This document shows positions 2,831 to 15,694 of a DNA stretch of 64,000 nt, piece after piece. The notes below the pieces were generated by a model. It had not been told where the DNA came from. It ran no database searches and saw only the letters and a list, made by a program, of their open reading frames with translations. The position numbers and the translations under genes were made by a program. Origin of the DNA: Pseudomonas synxantha. Its GTDB lineage: Bacteria; Pseudomonadota; Gammaproteobacteria; Pseudomonadales; Pseudomonadaceae. Numbering within the stretch: the stretch's first letter is position 1; each line of letters opens with the position of its first letter. Location of the stretch: assembly GCF_900105675.1 (NCBI RefSeq), contig NZ_LT629786.1:6572001-6636000 (forward strand). Direction: 5' to 3'.

Positions 2831-4501
2831 GTGACCAAGTCTACAAAATACCGTGACGTCGAAATCCGCGCCGCCCGCGGTAACAAGCTCACCGCCAAAA
2901 GCTGGCTGACTGAAGCGCCGCTGCGCATGCTGATGAACAACCTCGACCCACAAGTGGCCGAGAACCCGAAAGAGCTGGTGGTGTACGGCGGTATTGGCCG
3001 TGCGGCGCGCAATTGGGAATGCTACGACCAGATCGTCGAGAGCCTCACCAACCTGAACGACGACGAAACCCTATTGGTGCAATCGGGTAAACCGGTCGGC
3101 GTGTTCAAGACCCACAGCAATGCCCCGCGTGTGCTGATCGCCAACTCCAACCTGGTGCCGCACTGGGCCAGCTGGGAACACTTTAACGAATTGGATGCCA
3201 AGGGCCTGGCCATGTACGGCCAGATGACCGCCGGCAGCTGGATATACATCGGCAGCCAGGGCATCGTCCAGGGCACCTACGAAACCTTCGTCGAAGCTGG
3301 CCGCCAGCATTACAACAGCGATTTGACCGGTCGCTGGGTGCTCACCGCCGGTCTCGGCGGCATGGGCGGGGCCCAGCCGCTGGCGGCAACCCTGGCCGGC
3401 GCTTGCTCGCTGAACATCGAATGCCAGCAGGTCAGCATCGATTTCCGCCTGAGCAGCCGCTATGTCGACGAGCAAGCTACCGACCTCGACGACGCCCTGG
3501 CACGCATTGGCAAGTACACCAAGGAAGGCAAGGCCATCTCCATCGCCTTGCTGGGTAACGCCGCCGAAATCCTGCCGGAACTGGTCAAGCGTGGTGTACG
3601 TCCGGACATGGTCACCGACCAGACCAGCGCCCACGACCCGCTCAACGGCTACCTGCCAGCCGGCTGGACCTGGGACGAATACCGCGCCCGCGCCAAGACC
3701 GAGCCCGCCGCCGTGATCAAGGCCGCCAAGCAGTCGATGGCCGTGCACGTCAAAGCCATGCTGGAATTCCAGAAGCAGGGCATCCCGACCTTCGACTACG
3801 GCAATAACATCCGCCAGATGGCCCAGGAAGAAGGTGTGGAAAACGCCTTCGACTTTCCTGGTTTCGTACCGGCCTATATCCGCCCGCTGTTCTGCCGTGG
3901 CATCGGCCCGTTCCGTTGGGCTGCACTGTCCGGCGACCCGCAGGACATCTACAAGACTGACGCCAAGGTCAAAGAGCTGATCCCGGACGATGCCCACCTG
4001 CACAACTGGCTTGACATGGCTCGCGAACGCATCAGCTTCCAGGGCTTGCCGGCTCGTATCTGCTGGGTTGGCCTGGGCCAGCGCGCCAAGCTCGGCCTGG
4101 CCTTCAACGAAATGGTACGCAGCGGCGAACTGTCCGCGCCGGTGGTGATCGGCCGTGACCACCTGGACTCCGGCTCTGTGGCCAGCCCGAACCGCGAAAC
4201 CGAGGCCATGCAGGACGGTTCCGACGCCGTATCCGACTGGCCGCTGCTCAACGCCTTGCTCAACACCGCGAGCGGCGCGACCTGGGTTTCGCTGCACCAC
4301 GGTGGTGGCGTAGGCATGGGCTTCTCCCAGCATTCGGGCATGGTGATCGTGTGTGACGGTACCGACGAAGCGGCTGAGCGCATTGCGCGGGTACTGCATA
4401 ACGACCCGGCGACGGGGGTGATGCGTCATGCCGATGCCGGTTACCAGATCGCTATTGATTGCGCCAAGGAACAGGGCCTCAACCTGCCGATGATCAAGTG
4501 A
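2831..4501 (+). CDS. hutU: Urocanate hydratase (urocanase)
   Basis: HutU, 556 residues, adds water to urocanate to give imidazolonepropionate, the second step of histidine breakdown, using NAD+ as an electrophile. Full family length is present. The NAD-binding glycine stretch GLGGMGG is at about 174-180, and the active-site cysteine in [14 protein letters not shown] is residue 411. The start is GTG at 2831 with GAGGAG 8 nt upstream. It is the first gene of the long catabolic run and is preceded by the sigma-54 promoter and HutC operator. A REP pair separates it from the transporter gene downstream. Confidence 0.98.
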
Positions 4502-4596: not shown

Positions 4597-4642
4597 TGGA
4601 TCGGCGGCAACACTCAAGACAATCCATCAGAGGTTGAACCCC

Positions 4643-6088
4643 ATGGCTGCGAATGACACCACCCCGTTGATCGAAAGGCGCTCGATCGACTACATCCCGG
4701 AAGCGGAAAGACACGGTCGTCTATTTAGCCAGTTCACCCTGTGGATGGGTGCCAACCTGCAAATCACCGCGATCGTCACCGGGGCCCTGGCCGTGGTGCT
4801 GGGCGGTGATGTGTTCTGGTCGTTGATCGGCCTGCTGGTCGGTCAACTGATTGGCGGCGGCGTCATGGCCTTGCATGCGGCCCAAGGCCCCAAGCTTGGC
4901 CTGCCGCAGATGATTTCCAGCCGGGTGCAGTTCGGCGTGTATGGCGCGGCCATCCCGATCGTACTGGTGTGCTTGATGTACCTGGGTTTCACCGCAACCG
5001 GCACCGTGCTGTCGGGTCAGGCGCTGGGGCAGTTGTTTGGAGTCAGCGACAGCGTCGGTATCCTGATCTTTGCCAGTGTCATCGTGCTGGTCACCGTGCT
5101 GGGTTACCGGGTGATCCATTTCATCGGCCGTGTCGCCAGCGTCATTGGCGTGATTGCTTTTGTCTACCTGTTCAGTCGCCTGATGGGCCAGACCGACGTT
5201 GGCGCACTCCTGCAGATCCGCCATTTCAGCTGGAGCAGTTTTCTGTTGGCCGTGTCCCTCGCGGCATCCTGGCAGATCGCCTTCGGCCCGTATGTGGCGG
5301 ACTATTCGCGCTACCTGCCGAGCCAGACGTCATCGGTGAAAACCTTTCTTGCCGCTGGCGCAGGTTCGGTCGTCGGTGCACAGGTGGCGATGGTCCTTGG
5401 CGTGTTTGCCGCTGCGATGTCCGACGGACAGTTCGCCGGTCACGAAGTGGCCTACATCGTGGGCCTGAGCGGTACGGGAGCGACCGCTGCGTTGCTGTAT
5501 TTCAGCATCGCGTTCGGCAAGGTCACCATCTCGACGCTGAACTCCTACGGCAGCTTCATGTGCATTGCGACCATCGTCAGCGGTTTCCGTGGTCGCCTGG
5601 AGGTCACGCGGCTGCAGCGCCTGGCATTCGTGCTGGTCATCGTCGGCGCGGCGACCCTGATCGCGTTGCTCGGCCAGCATTCGTTCCTGGGGGCGTTCAA
5701 GTCGTTCATCCTGTTCCTGCTGGCGTTCTTTACGCCCTGGAGTGCGATCAACCTGGTGGATTACTACTGCATCACCCGCGAGCGCTATGACGTGCCGGCA
5801 CTGGCCGACCCGAACGGTCGCTACGGGCGCTGGAACCTGCTGGGTATCAGCGTCTATATCTTCGGCGTGCTGGTGCAGCTGCCGTTCATCGCCACCAAGT
5901 TCTACACCGGCCCTTTGGTGGCCGCGCTGGGTGGCGTGGATATTTCCTGGATCATCGGCTTGGTACTGCCGGCGGCCCTGTATTACGTGTGTGCGAAAAA
6001 ATGGCACGGCACGGTACCCGATCACCTGATCCTGCCAAAAGAGCAGGGCGCTTTACCCACAACAAACGGGCTGGCTGCACAAGCCTGA
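4643..6088 (+). CDS. hutTu: NCS1/CodB-like transporter, likely urocanate permease HutTu
   Basis: This 481-residue, 12-helix transporter belongs to the nucleobase:cation symporter-1 (cytosine/purine permease) family. Hydrophobic segments begin at about residue 35 (LQITAIVTGALAVVLGGDVFW), and the family segment SWQIAFGPYVADYSRYLP is present. The position between hutU and hutX matches the CodB-like gene of the P. fluorescens SBW25 hut locus, which is assigned to urocanate uptake; the substrate is inferred from that context. ATG at 4643 has AGAGGT 8 nt upstream and is preferred to an in-frame TTG 9 nt earlier. Confidence 0.88.
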   Translation: MAANDTTPLIERRSIDYIPEAERHGRLFSQFTLWMGANLQITAIVTGALAVVLGGDVFWSLIGLLVGQLIGGGVMALHAAQGPKLGLPQMISSRVQFGVYGAAIPIVLVCLMYLGFTATGTVLSGQALGQLFGVSDSVGILIFASVIVLVTVLGYRVIHFIGRVASVIGVIAFVYLFSRLMGQTDVGALLQIRHFSWSSFLLAVSLAASWQIAFGPYVADYSRYLPSQTSSVKTFLAAGAGSVVGAQVAMVLGVFAAAMSDGQFAGHEVAYIVGLSGTGATAALLYFSIAFGKVTISTLNSYGSFMCIATIVSGFRGRLEVTRLQRLAFVLVIVGAATLIALLGQHSFLGAFKSFILFLLAFFTPWSAINLVDYYCITRERYDVPALADPNGRYGRWNLLGISVYIFGVLVQLPFIATKFYTGPLVAALGGVDISWIIGLVLPAALYYVCAKKWHGTVPDHLILPKEQGALPTTNGLAAQA

Positions 6089-6157: not shown

Positions 6158-7123
6158 ATGACTATGAATAAGACCTTGCTGGCTACCTTGTTCTCGGCTG
6201 GCTTGCTGGCAAGCGCCGGCGCCCAGGCGGCCGGCTGGTGCGAATCCGGCAAACCGGTGAAATTCGCCGGCCTGAACTGGGAAAGCGGCATGTTGCTCAC
6301 CGACATCCTGCAAACCGTGCTGGAAAAAGGCTACGACTGCAAAACCGACAGCCTGCCGGGCAACTCCATCACCATGGAAAACGCCCTGGGCAGTAACGAT
6401 ATCCAAGTGTTTGCCGAGGAGTGGGTAGGCCGCAGCGAGGTCTGGAACAAGGCCGAGAAGGCCGGCAAGGTCGTGGGCGTCGGTGCCCCGGTCGTCGGTG
6501 CGGTCGAAGGTTGGTACGTACCGCGTTATGTGATCGAAGGCGACGCCAAGCGCAAGCTGGAAGCCAAGGCCCCGGACCTGAAAAGCATCGCCGACCTGGC
6601 CAAGTACGCCTCGGTGTTCAAGGACCAGGAAGAGCCCTCCAAGGGCCGTTTCTACAACTGCCCGGCCGGCTGGACCTGTGAGCTGGACAACAGCGAAATG
6701 CTCAAGAGCTACGGCCTGGAAAGCACCTATACCAACTTCCGCCCGGGCACCGGCCCGGCGCTGGACGCGGCGGTGCTGTCGAGCTACAAGCGCGGCGAGC
6801 CGATCCTGTTCTACTACTGGTCGCCGACGCCACTGATGGGCCAGGTCGACCTGGTCAAATTGGAAGAAAAACCCGGCGTGGATAAGCGCGTGAGTATCAA
6901 GGTCGGCCTGTCCAAGACCTTCCACGAGCAAGCCCCGGAACTGGTGGCTGTGCTGGAAAAGGTCAATCTGCCCATCGACCTGCTGAATCAGAACCTCGGC
7001 CGCATGGCCAAGGAGCGCATCGAGTCGCCAAAACTGGCGAAAATTTTCCTCAAGGAACATCCTGAAGTCTGGCACGCCTGGGTGAGCGACGACGCAGCCA
7101 AGAAAATCGACGCGGCCTTGTAG
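6158..7123 (+). CDS. hutX: ABC transporter periplasmic binding protein HutX
   Basis: This 321-residue OpuAC-type (glycine betaine/choline family) substrate-binding protein has a Sec signal peptide (MTMNKTLLATLFSAGLLASAGAQA, cleavage near residue 24). The mature part starts AGWCESGKPVKFAGLNWESG. It is the first gene of a hutX-hutW-hutV importer; the equivalent Sinorhizobium HutXWV takes up histidine, so histidine or a related imidazole is the likely substrate. Start choice: ATG 6158 with GGGAG about 10 nt upstream; ATG 6164 is possible. Tandem cysteines (GYDCK, FYNCPAGWTCE) may form periplasmic disulphides. Confidence 0.87.
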   Translation: MTMNKTLLATLFSAGLLASAGAQAAGWCESGKPVKFAGLNWESGMLLTDILQTVLEKGYDCKTDSLPGNSITMENALGSNDIQVFAEEWVGRSEVWNKAEKAGKVVGVGAPVVGAVEGWYVPRYVIEGDAKRKLEAKAPDLKSIADLAKYASVFKDQEEPSKGRFYNCPAGWTCELDNSEMLKSYGLESTYTNFRPGTGPALDAAVLSSYKRGEPILFYYWSPTPLMGQVDLVKLEEKPGVDKRVSIKVGLSKTFHEQAPELVAVLEKVNLPIDLLNQNLGRMAKERIESPKLAKIFLKEHPEVWHAWVSDDAAKKIDAAL

Positions 7124-7194
7124 GTCAAGTGTGCACGGCTACCCTCAGGGGTGGCCGGGCGGCTGGCCACAACCCACTGGATCGAGAGCACTAT

Positions 7195-8046
7195 ATGTTT
7201 CCTGAGAGTTTTACGTTTTCCATCGCCGACTGGGTCAACGGTTGGGTGGACTCGCTGGTTACCAACTACGGCGATGTGTTCCGGCACATTTCCGACACCC
7301 TGCTATGGGCCATCGTCAACCTGGAAGGGTTGCTGCGCATGGCGCCCTGGTGGCTGATGCTGGTCATCGTCGGCGGCGTTGCCTGGCACGCCACGCGCAA
7401 GCTGGTAACCACGGCGGTGATCGTCGGTTTGCTGTTCCTGGTGGGCGCGGTTGGCCTGTGGGACAAGCTGATGCAAACCCTGGCACTAATGATGGTCGCC
7501 ACGGTGATTTCGGTGCTGATCGGCATTCCCCTGGGCATCCTGTCGGCGCGCAGCAATCGCCTGCGTTCGGTGCTGATGCCACTGCTCGACATCATGCAGA
7601 CCATGCCGAGTTTCGTGTACCTGATCCCGGTGCTGATGCTGTTCGGCCTGGGCAAGGTCCCGGCGATCTTCGCCACGGTGATCTACGCCGCGCCGCCACT
7701 GATCCGCCTGACGGACCTGGGCATTCGCCAGGTCGATGGCGAAGTCATGGAAGCCATCAACGCCTTTGGCGCCAACCGCTGGCAGCAACTGTTCGGCGTG
7801 CAACTGCCGCTGGCGTTGCCGAGCATCATGGCCGGGATCAACCAGACCACCATGATGGCGCTGTCGATGGTGGTGATTGCCTCGATGATCGGCGCCCGTG
7901 GCTTGGGCGAAGACGTGCTTGTCGGCATCCAGACCCTCAACGTCGGCCGTGGCCTGGAAGCCGGGCTGGCGATCGTGATTCTCGCAGTGGTCATCGACCG
8001 CATTACCCAGGCTTATGGCCGCCCACGGCATGAGGCGAGCAAATGA
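7195..8046 (+). CDS. hutW: ABC transporter permease HutW
   Basis: This 283-residue ProW/OpuAB-type inner-membrane permease has several hydrophobic helices ([42 protein letters not shown]). The permease EAA loop is visible in [39 protein letters not shown], which contacts the ATPase. It forms the membrane channel between HutX and HutV. ATG 7195 follows a 71-nt gap after hutX. It overlaps hutV by 4 nt (ATGA), indicating translational coupling. Confidence 0.92.
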
Positions 8047-8867
8047 CTACTGTCAGCAAAATCGAAGTAAAGAACGTCTTCAAAATATTCGGCGCGCGTT
8101 CCAAGGATGCCCTGGCCATGATCGGCCAGGGCAAGACCAAGGACCAGGTACTGGCCGAGACCGGCTGCGTGGTCGGCGTGAATGACCTGTCCCTGAGCAT
8201 CGGCACTGGTGAGATCTTCGTGATCATGGGCCTGTCAGGTTCCGGTAAATCCACCCTGGTACGCCATTTCAATCGCCTGATCGACCCCACCAGCGGCGCG
8301 ATCCTGGTGGACGGCGAAGACATCCTGCAACTGGACATGGAAGCGCTGCGCCAATTCCGCCGGCACAAGATCAGCATGGTGTTCCAGAGCTTTGGTCTGT
8401 TGCCCCACAAGAGCGTGCTCGACAACGTTGCCTACGGCCTGAAAGTACGCGGCGAAACCAAGCAGGTGTGTGCCGAGCGCGCCCTGCACTGGATCGAAAC
8501 CGTAGGCCTCAAGGGCTACGAAAACAAATACCCGCACCAGCTTTCCGGCGGCATGCGCCAGCGTGTGGGCCTGGCCCGGGCCTTGGCGGCCGACACCGAC
8601 ATCATCCTGATGGACGAGGCCTTCAGCGCCCTCGACCCGCTGATCCGCGCCGAGATGCAGGACCAGTTGCTCGAGCTGCAAAAGACCCTGCACAAGACCA
8701 TCGTGTTTATCACCCACGACCTCGACGAGGCCGTGCGCATCGGCAACCGCATTGCGATTCTCAAGGACGGCAAGCTGATCCAGGTCGGCACGCCGCGCGA
8801 GATCCTGCATTCGCCAGCGGATGAGTATGTGGATCGGTTTGTTCAGCGGCGGGCGGCGGTGGTCTGA
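8043..8867 (+). CDS. hutV: ABC transporter ATP-binding protein HutV
   Basis: This 274-residue ProV-type ATPase powers HutXW. It shows the betaine-family N-terminal extension ([30 protein letters not shown]), Walker [10 protein letters not shown] (about residues 62-70), the ABC signature [15 protein letters not shown], Walker [15 protein letters not shown], and the H-loop FITHDLDEA. Unlike E. coli ProV (about 400 residues) it stops after the nucleotide-binding domain and has no C-terminal CBS pair, so the ionic-strength sensing associated with osmotic transporters should be absent. This fits a catabolic importer rather than an osmoprotectant uptake system. Confidence 0.92.
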
Positions 8868-8896
8868 GCCCAACCCTGTGGTGAGGCGACTGGCGC

Positions 8897-8988
8897 CATC
8901 GGGGGCAAGCCCCCTCCCACATTTGAAATGCATTCCCCCTGTGGGAGGGGCGGTGCGACGATTCGACTTGCCCCCGATTGGGCCGGCA
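8897..8988. repeat. Divergent REP pair with an interrupted unit, hutV-hutH1 gap
   Basis: A reverse REP unit (ATCGGGGGCAAGCC to CTCCCACATTT, 8897-8924) is followed after 16 nt by a forward unit (8941-8988). The forward unit, GTGGGAGGGG, is split from its expected CTTGCCCCCGAT by 16 nt (CGGTGCGACGATTCGA). The CTCCCAC ends face each other, the opposite of the REPIN layout. Confidence 0.8.
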
Positions 8989-9019
8989 AAGCTGCACAAG
9001 AATTGAAGAAGGTATGAAG

Positions 9020-10528
9020 ATGCCCCAGGCAACAACAATCATCATCGCCGACGCGCCGATGCGCTGGCAGGACGTGGCCGCCGTGGCTCGCCATGGCGCT
9101 GTGCTCGAGCTCTCGGGCCAGGCCTGGGCGCGCATCGACAACGCCCAGGCCATCGTGCAACGCATCGTCGCCAGCGGCGAGCGCGCCTATGGCGTCAATA
9201 CCGGCCTGGGCGCCTTGTGCAACGTGTCGCTCAAGGGCGAGCAATTGAGCCAGCTGTCGCGCAATACACTGTTGAGCCACGCCTGTGGCGTCGGCCCGGT
9301 GCTCAGCGACGAGCAGACCCGCGCGATCATCTGCGCGGCGATCATCAACTACAGCCACGGCAAGTCCGGCCTGCACCCACAGGTGGTGCACTCGTTGCTG
9401 GCGCTGCTCAATCACGGCATCACCCCGCAAGTGCCGTCCCAGGGCTCGGTGGGTTACCTGACCCACATGGCCCATGTCGGCGTGGCCTTGCTCGGCGTCG
9501 GCAATGTGAGCTATCGCGGCCAGGTGGTCACGGCGCAACACGCTTTGCAGGCTGAAGGCTTGCAACCCGTGGTGCTCGGCGCCAAAGACGGTCTGTGCCT
9601 GGTCAACGGCACGCCGTGCATGACCGGCCTGAGCTGTCTGGCCTTGGCCGATGCCCACCATTTGCTGCAATGGGCCGATGTGATCGGTGCCATGAGCTTC
9701 GAAGCCCAACGCGGCCAGATCGACGCCTTTGACGAAGCGATTATCGCCCTCAAGCCGCACCCGGGCATGCAGCAGGTCGGCAGCAACCTGCGCGCCTTGC
9801 TCGACGGCAGCGAAGTCATCGCCAGCAGCAAAGGTATTCGCACCCAGGACGCCCTGAGCATTCGCTCGATCCCGCAGATCCACGGCGCCGCTCGCGATCA
9901 GCTTGAGCACGCCACCCGCCAGATCGAGACTGAACTCAACAGCGCCACGGACAACCCACTGCTGCTTGGCACGCCGGATAACTATCGCGTGGTATCCCAG
10001 GCCAACCCGCACGGCCAGTCCGTAGCGCTGGCGGCGGACATGCTGGCGATTGCCATGGCCGAAATCGGCTCCGTGGCCGAACGTCGCCTGGACCGCCTGA
10101 TCAACCCGCACGTCAGCGGCTTGCCGGCGTTCCTGGTCAGCAACCCCGGGGTCAACTCCGGGATGATGATCGTGCAGTACGTCGCCGCATCCTTGTGCGG
10201 GCAGAACCGCCAACTGGCGCAACCGGCGGTGCTCGACAACTTCGTCACCTCGGGCCTGCAGGAAGACCACTTGAGCATGGGCACCAACGCCGCGCTCAAG
10301 CTGCACCAGGTGCTGGCCAACGTCACCCAGATCCTCGCCATCGAGTATCTGCTGGCAGCCCAGGCGTTCGAATTCCTCAAGGACCAGCGCTTCGGCGTGG
10401 GCACCGACCACGCCTGGCGCTTGCTGCGCGAAGTGGTCCCCGCTTACGAGCAGGACCGTTGGCTGGCGCCGGATATTGCCGCCGCTGCCCAGTTGCTTAA
10501 AGACACTGCGTTACCGAATTTGCACTGA
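9020..10528 (+). CDS. hutH1: Histidine ammonia-lyase paralogue lacking the MIO triplet
   Basis: This 502-residue aromatic amino-acid lyase family protein shows continuous homology to HutH2 (10561) throughout: YGVNTG, LLSHACGVG, LVNGT, TDNPLLL, QEDHLSMG. Histidine lyases need a 4-methylideneimidazole-5-one cofactor formed from an internal Ala-Ser-Gly. HutH2 has [15 protein letters not shown]; here the aligned stretch is GSVG-YLTHMAH with exactly those three residues absent after G145. Other active-site positions also differ: the YSLR tyrosine is leucine (DALSIRS) and the NFHAEP phenylalanine is proline (NPHGQS). The frame is intact and expressed-looking, so it is probably a maintained pseudoenzyme or altered enzyme rather than a decaying gene. 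AGAAGG lies 7 nt before ATG 9020; an ATG at 9014 is less well placed. Histidine lyase activity is unlikely. Confidence 0.85.
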   Translation: MPQATTIIIADAPMRWQDVAAVARHGAVLELSGQAWARIDNAQAIVQRIVASGERAYGVNTGLGALCNVSLKGEQLSQLSRNTLLSHACGVGPVLSDEQTRAIICAAIINYSHGKSGLHPQVVHSLLALLNHGITPQVPSQGSVGYLTHMAHVGVALLGVGNVSYRGQVVTAQHALQAEGLQPVVLGAKDGLCLVNGTPCMTGLSCLALADAHHLLQWADVIGAMSFEAQRGQIDAFDEAIIALKPHPGMQQVGSNLRALLDGSEVIASSKGIRTQDALSIRSIPQIHGAARDQLEHATRQIETELNSATDNPLLLGTPDNYRVVSQANPHGQSVALAADMLAIAMAEIGSVAERRLDRLINPHVSGLPAFLVSNPGVNSGMMIVQYVAASLCGQNRQLAQPAVLDNFVTSGLQEDHLSMGTNAALKLHQVLANVTQILAIEYLLAAQAFEFLKDQRFGVGTDHAWRLLREVVPAYEQDRWLAPDIAAAAQLLKDTALPNLH

Positions 10529-10560: not shown

Positions 10561-12093
10561 GTGACTGCGCTAAACCTGATTCCAGGCCAACTGACCCTCG
10601 CCCAGCTGCGGGCCATCTACCAGCAGCCGGTAACCCTCAGCCTGGATGACAGCGCCTCGGCCCAGATTGAAGCCAGCGTCGCCTGTGTGGAGCAGATTCT
10701 CGCCGAGAACCGCACCGCCTATGGCATCAACACCGGTTTCGGCCTGCTGGCCTCGACCCGCATCGCCAGTGAAGACCTGGAAAACCTCCAGCGTTCCCTG
10801 GTGCTGTCCCACGCCGCTGGCGTCGGTGAGCCGATCAGCGATGCGCTGGTGCGGCTGGTCATGGTGCTCAAGGTCAACAGCCTCAGCCGCGGGTTCTCCG
10901 GGATCCGTCGCCAGGTGATCGACGCGCTGATCGCGCTGATCAACGCCCAGGTGTACCCGCACATTCCGCTGAAAGGTTCGGTCGGCGCCTCTGGTGACCT
11001 GGCGCCATTGGCGCATATGTCCCTGGTGCTGCTTGGCGAAGGCAAAGCGCGTTACAAGGGCGAATGGCTGGAAGCCACCGCAGCGCTGAAAGTTGCTGGC
11101 CTCACACCGCTGACCCTGGCCGCCAAAGAAGGCCTGGCCTTGCTCAACGGCACCCAGGTATCCACCGCTTACGCATTGCGCGGCCTGTTCGAAGGTGAAG
11201 ACCTGTTTGCCGGCGCGCTCACCTGCGGCGGCCTCACCGTGGAGGCCGTACTGGGTTCGCGCTCGCCGTTCGATGCGCGTATTCATGCGGCGCGTGGCCA
11301 GCGTGGGCAGATCGATGCGGCTGCGGCCTATCGTGACCTGCTGGGCGAAAGCAGCCAGGTGTCGCAGTCGCACCAGAACTGCGACAAGGTGCAAGATCCG
11401 TACTCCCTGCGTTGCCAGCCACAGGTCATGGGCGCCTGCCTGACTCAGTTCCGCCAGGCCGCCGAAGTGCTGGTGGTCGAAGCCAACGCGGTATCGGATA
11501 ACCCGCTGGTATTTGCCGCCGAAGGCGACGTGATTTCCGGCGGTAACTTCCACGCCGAACCGGTGGCCATGGCCGCTGACAATATGGCTTTGGCCATCGC
11601 CGAAATAGGCTCCCTGAGTGAGCGGCGCATCTCGCTGATGATGGACAAGCACATGTCGCAACTGCCGCCGTTCCTGGTAGGCAATGGTGGGGTGAACTCC
11701 GGTTTCATGATCGCCCAGGTCACTGCCGCTGCGCTCGCCAGCGAGAACAAGGCACTGGCCCATCCCCATAGCGTCGACAGCCTGCCGACCTCGGCGAACC
11801 AGGAAGACCACGTCTCCATGGCCCCGGCCGCGGGCAAGCGCCTGTGGGAAATGGCCGAGAACACCCGTGGCATTCTCGCGGTGGAATGGCTTGCAGCCTG
11901 CCAGGGCCTGGACCTGCGCGACGGCTTGAAAACCTCGCCTGCGCTTGAAAAAGCCCGGAGCATCCTGCGCGACAAAGTAGCGTTCTACGACAAGGACCGC
12001 TTCTTTGCCCCGGACATCAATGCCGCCAGCGAACTGCTTGCCACCCGTTGCCTGAATGAGCTGGTGCCGGCCAAGTTGCTGCCAAGCCTTTAA
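10561..12093 (+). CDS. hutH2: Histidine ammonia-lyase HutH2
   Basis: This 510-residue enzyme removes ammonia from histidine to give urocanate, the first hut step. The MIO-forming triplet Ala143-Ser144-Gly145 is present in [16 protein letters not shown]. The usual active-site segments are intact: [49 protein letters not shown] and [10 protein letters not shown]. The start is GTG 10561, overlapping an ATG that runs straight into TGA; AAGGAG sits 7 nt upstream. It follows hutH1 by 32 nt, and in SBW25 the second hutH is the one needed for growth on histidine, consistent with its intact active site. Confidence 0.97.
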
Positions 12094-12107
12094 GCTCACC
12101 GGTACCC

Positions 12108-12200
12108 AATGTGGGAGCTGGCTTGCCTGCGATAGCGGTGTATCTGCGCCAGATGGGCTGGCTGGAAGTCCGCCATCGCAGGCAAGCCAGCTCCCACATT
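12108..12200. repeat. REP pair, second sequence class (GTGGGAGCTGGCTTGCC)
   Basis: Convergent inverted units GTGGGAGCTGGCTTGCCTGCGAT and complement (ATCGCAGGCAAGCCAGCTCCCAC, described in parts here) flank a 45-nt linker. The core differs from the GGGGGCTTGC class used at most other loci in the window, so it probably belongs to a separate REP group. Confidence 0.88.
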
Positions 12201-12251
12201 GATTTTCGCCAGATTCAGATTTTCTCGGGATAAGAATAATAGGGAAGAGAA

Positions 12252-13661
12252 ATGCACCAACAAGAAAAGGGTTTGAAACGCGGGCTCAACGCCCGACATA
12301 TTCGCTTCATGGCACTCGGTTCCGCGATCGGCACCGGGCTGTTCTATGGCTCCGCCTCGGCCATCCAGATGGCCGGCCCTGCCGTGCTGCTGGCCTACCT
12401 GATCGGCGGCGCCGCGGTGTTCATGGTGATGCGCGCCCTCGGTGAAATGGCTGTGCACAATCCGGTATCCGGCTCCTTCGGCCAGTACGCCAGCACCTAC
12501 CTGGGCCCCATGGCCGGGTTTATCCTCGGTTGGACCTATGCATTTGAAATGATCATCGTCTGCCTGGCCGACGTCACCGCCTTCGGCATCTACATGGGCT
12601 TCTGGTTTCCTGAGGTCGCCCGTTGGGTCTGGGTGCTGGGCATCGTGTTTTTGATCGGCGGCCTGAACCTGTGCAACGTCAAGGTTTTTGGCGAGATGGA
12701 GTTCTGGCTGTCACTGCTCAAGGTCGGCGCTATCGTGGCGATGATCCTCGGCGGGTTCGGCATCATGCTGTTCGGCATTCACTCGGCGGGTGAAACCCAG
12801 GCCAGTGGCTTGAGCAACCTGTGGGCCCACGGCGGCTTCATGCCCAACGGTATCGGCGGGCTGATTGCCTCGTTTGCGGTAGTGATGTTTGCCTTTGGCG
12901 GGATCGAAATCATCGGCATCACAGCCGGCGAAGCCAAGGACCCGCAGCGGGTTATCCCCAAGGCGATCAACGCGGTGCCGCTGCGCATCCTGTTGTTCTA
13001 CGTGCTGACCCTGTTCGTGCTTATGGCGATCTACCCATGGCCGCAGATCGGCAGCCAGGGCAGCCCGTTCGTGCAGATCTTCAGCAACCTGGGAATCGGC
13101 TCGGCGGCGACCATCCTCAACATCGTGGTGATCTCGGCGGCCGTGTCGGCGATCAACAGCGACATCTTCGGCGCTGGCCGCATGATGTACGGCCTGGCCC
13201 AGCAAGGGCAGGCGCCCAAGGGTTTTGCGCAGTTGTCCAGGCAGGGCGTGCCGTGGATGACTGTAGTGGTGATGGGCGCCGCGTTGCTCGGCGGTGTGGT
13301 GCTCAACTACCTGATCCCGGAAAACGTGTTCCTGCTGATCGCGTCGATTGCCACCTTCGCCACCGTGTGGGTGTGGCTGATGATTTTGTTCACCCAGGTC
13401 GCCATGCGTCGCTCCATGACCAAGGAACAGGTCGCCGAGCTGAAATTCCCGGTACCGTTCTGGCCCTATGCGCCGGCAGCGGCCATTGTGTTCATGCTGT
13501 TTGTGTTTGGCGTGCTCGGTTACTTCCCGGACACCCAGGCGGCCTTGATGGTCGGCGCCGTGTGGATCGTGCTGCTGATACTCGCTTACTTGCTGTGGGT
13601 CAAGCCCGCCGCCGGGCAAACGGCCAGGGTCCACTACGACCCGGCCTTGTCTCATCGATAA
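12252..13661 (+). CDS. hutTh: Histidine permease (APC family) HutTh
   Basis: This 469-residue amino acid-polyamine-organocation transporter has 12 predicted helices. The family start is [47 protein letters not shown], followed by the substrate-loop [19 protein letters not shown]. It most resembles the ProY/HutT group of basic or proline amino-acid permeases. Its position between hutH2 and hutI matches the SBW25 histidine transporter, so histidine uptake is the likely role. GGAAGAGA precedes the ATG. It is the third transport system in the hut cluster, after the CodB-like carrier and HutXWV. Confidence 0.9.
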
Positions 13662-13676: not shown

Positions 13677-14882
13677 ATGAAAACCCTTTGGCACCACTGC
13701 CACGTCGCAACCATGGCCCAGGGCAAATACTCGATCATCGAGGACGCCGCCATGGTGACTGTCGGCTCGCTCATCGAGTGGGTCGGCCCCCGCAGCCAGG
13801 CACCCACGGTGGATTACGCCCAGGTGCATGACCTGCAAGGCGCGTGGGTCACCCCCGGGCTGATCGACTGCCACACCCACACGGTGTTCGGCGGCAATCG
13901 CAGCGGCGAATTCGAGCAGCGCCTTGAGGGCGTCAGCTACGCCGACATCGCGGCCAAGGGCGGCGGTATCGCCAGCACCGTGCGTGCCACTCGCGCTGCC
14001 ACGGAAGATGATCTGTTTGCCAGCGCTGAAAAGCGCCTGCGCAGTTTGCTGCGTGATGGCGTGACCACGGTGGAGATCAAATCCGGCTACGGCCTGGACC
14101 TGGCCAACGAACGCAAGATGCTGCGCGTGGCCCGGCGTCTGGGTGACGCGCTGCCAGTCAGTGTGCGCGCCACGTGCCTGGCCGCCCACGCGTTGCCGCC
14201 GGAGTACAAGGATCGCGCCGACGCCTACATCGAGCACATCTGCACCGAGATGCTGCCGGCCCTGGCTGCAGAAGGGTTGGTGGATGCGGTGGACGCCTTC
14301 TGCGAATACCTGGCGTTTTCCCCGGAGCAGGTTGAGCGTGTATTTAAAGTCGCCCAGCAGCTCGGCCTGCCGGTGAAGCTGCACGCCGAGCAACTTTCGT
14401 CCCTGCACGGTTCAAGCCTGGCGGCGCGTTACCACGCGCTGTCGGCGGATCACCTGGAGTTCATGACCGAAGACGACGCCATCGCCATGGCTGCTGCCGG
14501 CACCGTCGCCGTCTTGCTACCGGGGGCTTTCTACTTCCTGCGTGAAACCCAGTTGCCGCCGATGGAGGCCCTGCGCAAGCACGGGGTGAAGATCGCCATT
14601 GCCAGCGACCTCAACCCTGGCACCTCGCCGGCGTTGTCGGTGCGCCTGATGCTGAACATGGCCTGCACCCTGTTCCGCATGACCCCGGAAGAAGCCCTGG
14701 CCGGCGCCACGCAACATGCGGCTACCGCGTTGGGCATGGGCGACACCCATGGTTCCCTGGAAGTGGGCAAAGTTGCAGATTTTGTCGCCTGGCAGATCGA
14801 TCGTCCCGCCGACCTGGCCTACTGGCTGGGCGGCGAGCTGGATAAACGCGTCGTGCGCCATGGCGCCGATGTCACAGTTTAA
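13677..14882 (+). CDS. hutI: Imidazolonepropionase HutI
   Basis: HutI, 401 residues, hydrolyses 4-imidazolone-5-propionate to N-formimino-L-glutamate, the third hut step. It is a metal-dependent amidohydrolase: the metal-binding HxH is in [17 protein letters not shown] (about residues 66-72), followed by [26 protein letters not shown] and the catalytic aspartate region [10 protein letters not shown]. The length is typical. GGGAGG lies 7 nt before ATG 13677. It is 15 nt after the histidine permease and 11 nt before hutG. Confidence 0.98.
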
Positions 14883-14893
14883 GGAGAAGCGTT

Positions 14894-15694
14894 GTGGATA
14901 AGGTCCTGACATTCAAACAAGGCCGCGTACCGCTGCTGATCAGCATGCCCCACGCCGGCCTGCGCCTGACGCCTGCGGTCGAGGCCGGGTTGATCCCCGA
15001 GGCGCAAAGCCTGCCGGACACCGACTGGCATATCCCCTTACTGTACGACTTTGCCGAAGAACTAGGCGCCAGCACCCTGGCCGCGGAGTACTCGCGGTTT
15101 GTCATCGACTTGAACCGGCCCTCGGATAACAAGCCGCTTTATGCAGGCGCCACCACCGGCCTGTACCCGCAGACGCTGTTCGATGGCGTGCCGCTGTTTC
15201 GTGAAGGGCAGACGCCCTCCGAGGAAGAGCGTGCGACCTACCTGCAGAAGATCTGGGGCCCTTATCACCGCCAGCTGCAAGAAGAACTGGCGCGCCTGAA
15301 GGCCGAGTTTGGCTACGCGCTGCTGTTCGATGCGCACTCGATCCGCTCGGTAATCGCGCACCTGTTCGACGGCAAGTTGCCGGACTTCAACCTCGGTACC
15401 TTCAACGGCGCCGCATGCGATCCGGAACTGGCCAGCCAGCTCGAAGCCATCTGCGCCGCGCATCCCCAGTACACCCATGTGCTGAACGGGCGTTTCAAGG
15501 GCGGCCACATCACCCGGCACTACGGCGACCCGGCGCAGGATGTCCATGCCGTGCAACTGGAGTTGTGCCAGAGCGCGTATATGGAGGAGTTTGAGCCGTT
15601 TCGCTATCGTCCCGACCTGGCTGAACCGACCCAGGTGGTGTTGAAGCAACTGCTGCAAGGGTTTTTGTCTTGGGGGCAAAGCCGGTACCGATGA
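14894..15694 (+). CDS. hutG: N-formylglutamate deformylase HutG
   Basis: HutG, 266 residues, splits N-formyl-L-glutamate into formate and glutamate, the last step of the five-enzyme branch that uses HutF. Motifs include the zinc-site segment PLLISMPHAGLRLTP, the DLNRPSDNKPLY segment, LLFDAHSIRS and GGHITRHYG. The start is GTG 14894 with AAGGAG 7 nt upstream. It is the last gene of the hut run; REP sequence follows and no T-rich terminator was seen. The presence of both hutF and this type of HutG shows the organism uses the deiminase/deformylase route rather than direct formiminoglutamase. Confidence 0.96.
   Translation: MDKVLTFKQGRVPLLISMPHAGLRLTPAVEAGLIPEAQSLPDTDWHIPLLYDFAEELGASTLAAEYSRFVIDLNRPSDNKPLYAGATTGLYPQTLFDGVPLFREGQTPSEEERATYLQKIWGPYHRQLQEELARLKAEFGYALLFDAHSIRSVIAHLFDGKLPDFNLGTFNGAACDPELASQLEAICAAHPQYTHVLNGRFKGGHITRHYGDPAQDVHAVQLELCQSAYMEEFEPFRYRPDLAEPTQVVLKQLLQGFLSWGQSRYR

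Follow-up and report, generated by a model that had tools for sequence, protein, structure and literature searches.

HutH1 of the Pseudomonas hut operon, a histidase-like protein without the MIO tripeptide, is a candidate MIO-independent lyase that may act on hercynine

The conserved active site of HutH1 and the genes that surround it suggest that this HAL-fold protein, encoded in the hut operon of Pseudomonas synxantha, is probably a lyase that acts on an N-methylated imidazole amino acid independently of MIO. Its likeliest substrate is predicted to be hercynine (N,N,N-trimethylhistidine, or histidine betaine), which would be converted into urocanate and trimethylamine, an assignment that we hold at somewhat better than even confidence. 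HutH1 is most likely not a histidase, nor an inactive partner protein. The gene lies in the window, that is, the whole stretch of 64,000 nucleotides that was analysed, whose features are collected in Table 1; HutU, HutI and HutG are named there from their sequences.

Table 1. Features of the hut region, in positions of the window
Feature	Position	Strand	Remark
HutU, urocanate hydratase	2831..4501	+	Would accept the proposed product
NCS1-type permease	4634..6088	+	Urocanate transporter HutTu by position; name as in PMC8871633
HutX, OpuAC-type (quaternary amine) substrate-binding protein	6164..7123	+	ORF listed with GTG from 6095; ATG of MNKT at 6164
HutW, ABC permease	7129..8046	+	ChoW and ProW models match best, below their cut-offs
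HutV, ABC ATPase	8043..8867	+	Betaine/proline/choline proV model, above cut-off
HutH1, MIO-less HAL-fold protein, 504 aa, proposed hercynine trimethylamine-lyase	9014..10528	+	ATG at 9014; stop ends at 10528
GSVGYLTHMAH loop, residues 144-154	9443..9475	+	Without MIO tripeptide; clade-specific Tyr148 and His151
LSIR, residues 281-284	9854..9865	+	Leu for HAL Tyr280; Arg283 retained
NPHG, residues 331-334	10004..10015	+	Pro for HAL Phe329
HutH2, canonical MIO histidase	10561..12093	+	
HutI	13677..14882	+	
HutG	14894..15694	+	

HutH1 matched the aromatic amino acid lyase family PF00221 and its fold, and was 38% identical to HutH2 over 486 columns (BLASTP). The first-pass annotation had described it as a paralogue from which exactly the Ala-Ser-Gly of the MIO had been removed in an otherwise gapless alignment, with two further active-site changes. 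The tripeptide, which cyclises to MIO in canonical histidases, is indeed missing from the HutH1 reading frame, and both substitutions, Leu for Y280 and Pro for F329, were confirmed. Outside the loop the alignment is not free of gaps, as four of its seven gap positions fall there, in two separate pairs. The three gaps within the loop may be placed as ASG, with Asp changed to Tyr, or, as BLASTP has it, as SGD, in which case Ala is changed to Tyr; Ser143, the MIO precursor, is absent under either placement. HutH1 scored 539.7 bits against TIGR01225, the NCBIfam hutH equivalog model, only 0.55 bits over its cut-off of 539.15, which makes its automatic naming as a histidase explicable. Three PF00221 proteins were found in the genome of the window (6.84 Mb, single contig), and the third, L003, has ASG.

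The proposal of a cofactor-less but maintained HAL fold within a hut operon was borne out in Pseudomonas by conservation of the loop and by purifying selection. A HutH1 orthologue (at least 58% identity over nearly the full length) was found in 137, counted by hand, of 199 Pseudomonas genomes, among which was that of the window. The loop was read in 72 of these orthologues, again with the window's own, and the tripeptide was absent from every one, the sequence being GSVGYLTHMAH in 69, GSVGYLSHMAH in two and GSVGYLAHMAH in one. At 52 loci carrying both genes, the median pairwise dN/dS (NG86) was 0.116 for HutH1, with a maximum of 0.217 (1316 usable of 1326 pairs), and 0.055 for HutH2. HutH1 is under purifying selection, weaker than that on HutH2, with a dN/dS about twice as high. 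A second MIO-less HAL group was also observed in Pseudomonas (L078, L080 and L081; about 37% identity to HutH1), with the loop GSVGYLAVEGH, lying outside the main clade described below and near amino-acid type ABC binding proteins.

Further MIO-less relatives were drawn from plasmid records, genome contigs and a 398-genome phylum sample. The 283 distinct HAL-like ORFs of at least 440 residues, together with the two proteins of the window, carried loops of the ASG type (CSG, SSG and TSG variants included), of a GxGY type, or of a few other types. After masking of the loop and thinning below 80% identity, 102 sequences were kept for the tree (49 MIO, 48 GxGY and 5 other), in which FastTree recovered clades of 45 GxGY (support 0.95), 46 MIO (0.96) and the 5 other sequences (1.0); HutH1 did not group with the MIO-bearing HutH proteins. 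Ergothionase was the best PDB match for two of the five others, L087 and L097, the remaining three being called ergothionase-like by clade alone. Two GxGY sequences, from a Klebsiella plasmid and one Rhizobium leguminosarum plasmid, joined the ergothionase-like ones (0.89), and one of the L078 type stood isolated. The main clade contained Proteobacteria (Pseudomonas, Enterobacterales, Salinicola, Paracoccus, Rhizobiales, Burkholderia and Nitrospirillum) as well as Paenibacillus, Priestia and one Sulfobacillus MAG, so the MIO-less GxGY proteins form a supported clade spanning Proteobacteria and Bacillota. The node uniting the MIO-less groups, GxGY and ergothionase-like, had a support of just 0.53, and the tree leaves unsettled the direction of change implied when the tripeptide was said to have been removed.

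Active-site positions were compared, in the numbering of P. putida HAL, across 45 non-redundant members of the main GxGY clade. Y53, H83, N195, Q277, R283 and E414, which we take to be the HAL residues serving the ring, the carboxylate and the base, were retained in all 45. Ser143 was absent throughout, and the two positions that presumably face the MIO in canonical histidases were altered, position 280 being Leu in 45/45 and position 329 being Pro in 22, Ala in 21, Cys in two and Phe in none, a variation which implies that pockets differ between GxGY subclades. Tyr148 and His151, within the former MIO loop, are new invariants specific to the clade. This pattern indicates that the cofactor and its contacts are missing while the residues for binding an imidazole amino acid and abstracting a proton are present. 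The retained base and substrate residues argue for catalysis over the mere binding of histidine or urocanate that had earlier been entertained, and Tyr148, His151 and Leu281 may make room for, and stabilise, a trimethylammonium group. Leu at 280 recurs in the two Klebsiella-type sequences, in which N195 is replaced by Gly or Ser and F329 by Gly.

A precedent for such chemistry is found in ergothionase, an HAL-like enzyme which is reported to be one that 'lacks the MIO' and to release trimethylamine from ergothioneine, with thiourocanic acid as the other product (PMC13405746). The suggestion of an enzyme with new chemistry, the best among the options first raised for HutH1, has to be tempered by this precedent. 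An AlphaFold2 model of HutH1 built with 29 sequences (mean pLDDT 91.5, pTM 0.92) gave a TM score of 0.92 against the histidase HutH of P. putida (EC 4.3.1.3; 1b8f; 38% identity) and of 0.91-0.92 against the ergothionase of Treponema denticola (6s7j; 29% identity); since the model fits both about equally, the fold does not discriminate between them. With the histidase, HutH1 shares the six retained residues listed above and the hut operon, differing in the lack of ASG and MIO and in the two MIO-facing substitutions. In PDB alignments, the ergothionase chain shows SSIGEGDITTLSH for the loop and, elsewhere, LQDPLSFR (with Leu at 280) and IEDH, and it has in common with HutH1 the MIO-less HAL fold, the Leu and the Glu of the ED motif. 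HutH1 departs from it by its loop (GSVGY instead of SSIGEGD), by its hut context and by its clade, and the ergothionase-like proteins also differ from the GxGY proteins in the states of N195 and F329. Tyr389 of HutH1 aligns with a Lys of the T. denticola enzyme that we take to be catalytic. This position is Tyr in 48/48 GxGY and 36/49 MIO sequences and Lys in 4/5 ergothionase-like ones; because Tyr is also commonest in the MIO HALs, Tyr389 speaks solely against ergothionase. HutH1 is best read as working like an ergothionase yet falling outside that family. In addition, HAL relatives with the loop GS(I/L)GAADLAxLA were observed in L091, L093 and L124 (11981-13519 in the latter), carrying the ergothionase Lys and adjoined in L093 and L124 by a glycine-betaine type ABC transporter; these are perhaps further MIO-less lyases.

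The genes of HutXWV precede that of HutH1 in the window. Between hutV and hutH1, a paired palindromic element was observed at 8892-8984, presumably REP/REPIN-like, whose core GGCAAGCCCCCTCCCACA has 20 occurrences in the window when up to 2 mismatches are allowed, against 0 expected. HutX matched PF04069 (OpuAC) with 209.6 bits, and W65, W140 and W188 of E. coli ProX, which we take to form an aromatic cage, each align with a Trp of HutX. The three Trp were kept, wherever covered, in 21 further ORFs with HutX as their best query, mostly from Pseudomonas (the broken ORF of L113 covers only the first position). HutXWV shows in this way the domain and the aligned cage positions of the ProXWV/OpuC quaternary-amine ABC transporters, and it is proposed as the partner of HutH1. 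Published phenotypes bear on this proposal, and for that purpose PA5093 is assumed to be the HutH1 orthologue. In a 2025 paper (PMC12772324), PA5093 is labelled 'hutG' and its deletion is reported to grow poorly on histidine or urocanate. This would be at odds with the proposal unless a wrong locus number or a polar effect of the mutation accounts for it; the 'hutG' label may reflect a slip in the locus number, or else be relevant to HutH1. For strain SBW25, another report describes HutXWV as taking part in histidine uptake and hutH1 as dispensable for growth on histidine (PMC8871633).

Betaine-class transporters were found beside GxGY genes in several lineages. A QAT system adjoins the gene in Pseudomonas, three Rhizobiales and Paenibacillus, as well as in the Klebsiella-plasmid type outside the main clade, and a BCCT adjoins it in a second branch of Pseudomonas, in a family belonging to the same order, and in Salinicola and Paracoccus. 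In that Pseudomonas branch (L073-L075), the BCCT gene immediately precedes those of HutH1 and HutH2, in the place of HutXWV, while the gene order is hutU-BCCT-GxGY-hutI-hutG in Salinicola corii and OpuC-like ABC system-GxGY-hutU-hutI in Paenibacillus eucommiae. The Klebsiella plasmid combines QAT and GxGY with hutU, hutI, hutG, hutF and hutC, a Priestia plasmid holds hutU, hutI and one GxGY gene, and each of these records has a single HAL match. At 11365-12854 of a K. pneumoniae plasmid (L209), the NCS1 permease gene that separates hutU from hutI in the hut island is split into two frames. An amino-acid type ABC system adjoins GxGY in Enterobacterales, Burkholderia and Rhizobium, at a few loci together with a SolA-like gene. 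Enzymes of N-methylated amines were encountered in a few loci, namely a SolA-like N-methyl-amino-acid oxidase in L071, L085, L130, L153 and L192, and a GbcA-like glycine-betaine monooxygenase beside two Pseudomonas members, L076 (583.7 bits, under the cut-off of 670) and L077. In Serratia rubidaea (L113, 1814-3700), HAL matches in several frame pieces were noted upstream of the GxGY gene.

Among 27 non-Pseudomonas GxGY loci, a homologue of hutU, hutI, hutG or hutF was present in the stretch at 15, a number that rises to 21 when hutC-like GntR proteins are included. Within 6 kb, eight of the 27 had a QAT or BCCT and ten a PAAT (one locus having both), and ten had none of the three; a SolA-like oxidase adjoined two, and a GbcA-like protein none. 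A matched control within the 14 genomes carrying both GxGY and canonical HutH found QAT/BCCT within 6 kb of 4/14 GxGY genes and 1/14 canonical ones, a difference that was not significant (p = 0.33); with any of QAT, BCCT or PAAT counted, the figures were 9/14 and 3/14 (p = 0.054).

According to the proposed mechanism, HutXWV would import the betaine hercynine, and HutH1 would bind the imidazole amino acid in the fashion of a histidase, abstract its beta-proton and expel its amine; this being a good leaving group from the outset, the electrophilic MIO would be unneeded. We infer from the precedent of ergothionase that a trimethylammonium group could leave without MIO. The urocanate released from hercynine along with trimethylamine would be carried on to glutamate by HutU, HutI, HutF and HutG. 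This picture is favoured by the invariance of the ring, carboxylate and base positions beside altered MIO-facing ones, by the Leu that ergothionase shares with all main-clade GxGY proteins and the Lys that they lack, by the betaine-class transporters, the ProX-position Trp of HutX and its relatives, and the few N-methyl-amine enzymes alongside, and by the hut genes at 15 of the 27 loci, which fit urocanate as the product. Against it stand the ten loci with PAAT and the ten with none of the three transporter types, the matched QAT/BCCT control, the reported part of HutXWV in histidine uptake, the growth defects ascribed to PA5093, the scarcity of SolA-like and GbcA-like neighbours among the 27 loci, and a dN/dS twice that of HutH2. 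The variation in transporter class between lineages, the SolA-like oxidase and GbcA-like oxygenase genes that neighbour certain members and the changeable F329 position would also fit an MIO-independent lyase for another imidazole substrate, such as N-alpha-mono- or dimethylhistidine or another histidine derivative, possibly differing by clade; this is unlikely, though to be taken seriously, as the Trp of HutX and the BCCT neighbours indicate a fully quaternary amine in the Pseudomonas branch.

Readings without elimination have less in their favour. A urocanate binder or isomerase (for instance, from cis- to trans-urocanate), or another non-eliminating hut enzyme, would accord with the retained ring- and carboxylate-binding residues and the nearby hut genes, but it leaves the quaternary-amine transporters unexplained and, to our knowledge, has no precedent in the HAL fold, so we regard it as improbable. 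The regulator or hetero-oligomer partner of HutH2 put forward by the first-pass annotation, which would be catalytically dead, draws on the identity between the two neighbouring Pseudomonas proteins and on the reported dispensability of hutH1; it is rendered very improbable by base and substrate residues invariant in 45/45, by hut loci and plasmids without any other HAL, and by two of 16 GxGY genomes, P. eucommiae and S. corii, in which no canonical HutH was found, an absence that is uncertain in drafts (in some of the other genomes the loops of only part of the HAL copies were read). In the P. eucommiae draft the one PF00221 protein is of the GxGY type, and in that of S. corii the ASG copy resembles L003 (75% identity) far more than HutH2 (34%), so that in both the GxGY gene of the hut operon is the sole HutH candidate. 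About as improbable is a true ergothionase, forming thiourocanate and trimethylamine from ergothioneine, for which the shared MIO-less fold and the Leu at 280 are outweighed by Tyr in place of Lys in 48/48, the separate clade and the different loop. The raised dN/dS could point to a decaying, pseudogene-like histidase, but its median and maximum remain low and the loop is retained in 72/72 orthologues and across phyla, making decay barely credible.

For hutH1, which has been described as encoding a histidase yet is reportedly dispensable on histidine, hercynine trimethylamine-lyase activity would offer a role open to testing. More broadly, and only tentatively, since we would put this slightly below an even chance, the GxGY 'HutH' proteins now labelled histidases in databases may be unrecognised hercynine trimethylamine-lyases that occur across phyla, carry a Tyr/His pair where the MIO loop would be and belong to a complete hercynine-to-glutamate pathway, both chromosomal and plasmid-borne. 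Such a pathway would consist of a betaine transporter, the GxGY lyase and HutU-HutI-HutG/F, and would be chromosomal in soil bacteria and release trimethylamine. Hercynine is produced by fungi and mycobacteria, and if the assignment is true, Pseudomonas and many other bacteria consume it, which would represent an additional microbial source of trimethylamine. It would also mean that a curated model such as TIGR01225 can label a mechanistically different enzyme as a histidase. Finally, HutH1 would provide a second type of MIO-independent lyase alongside ergothionase, backing the idea that a quaternary leaving group makes the MIO cofactor dispensable.
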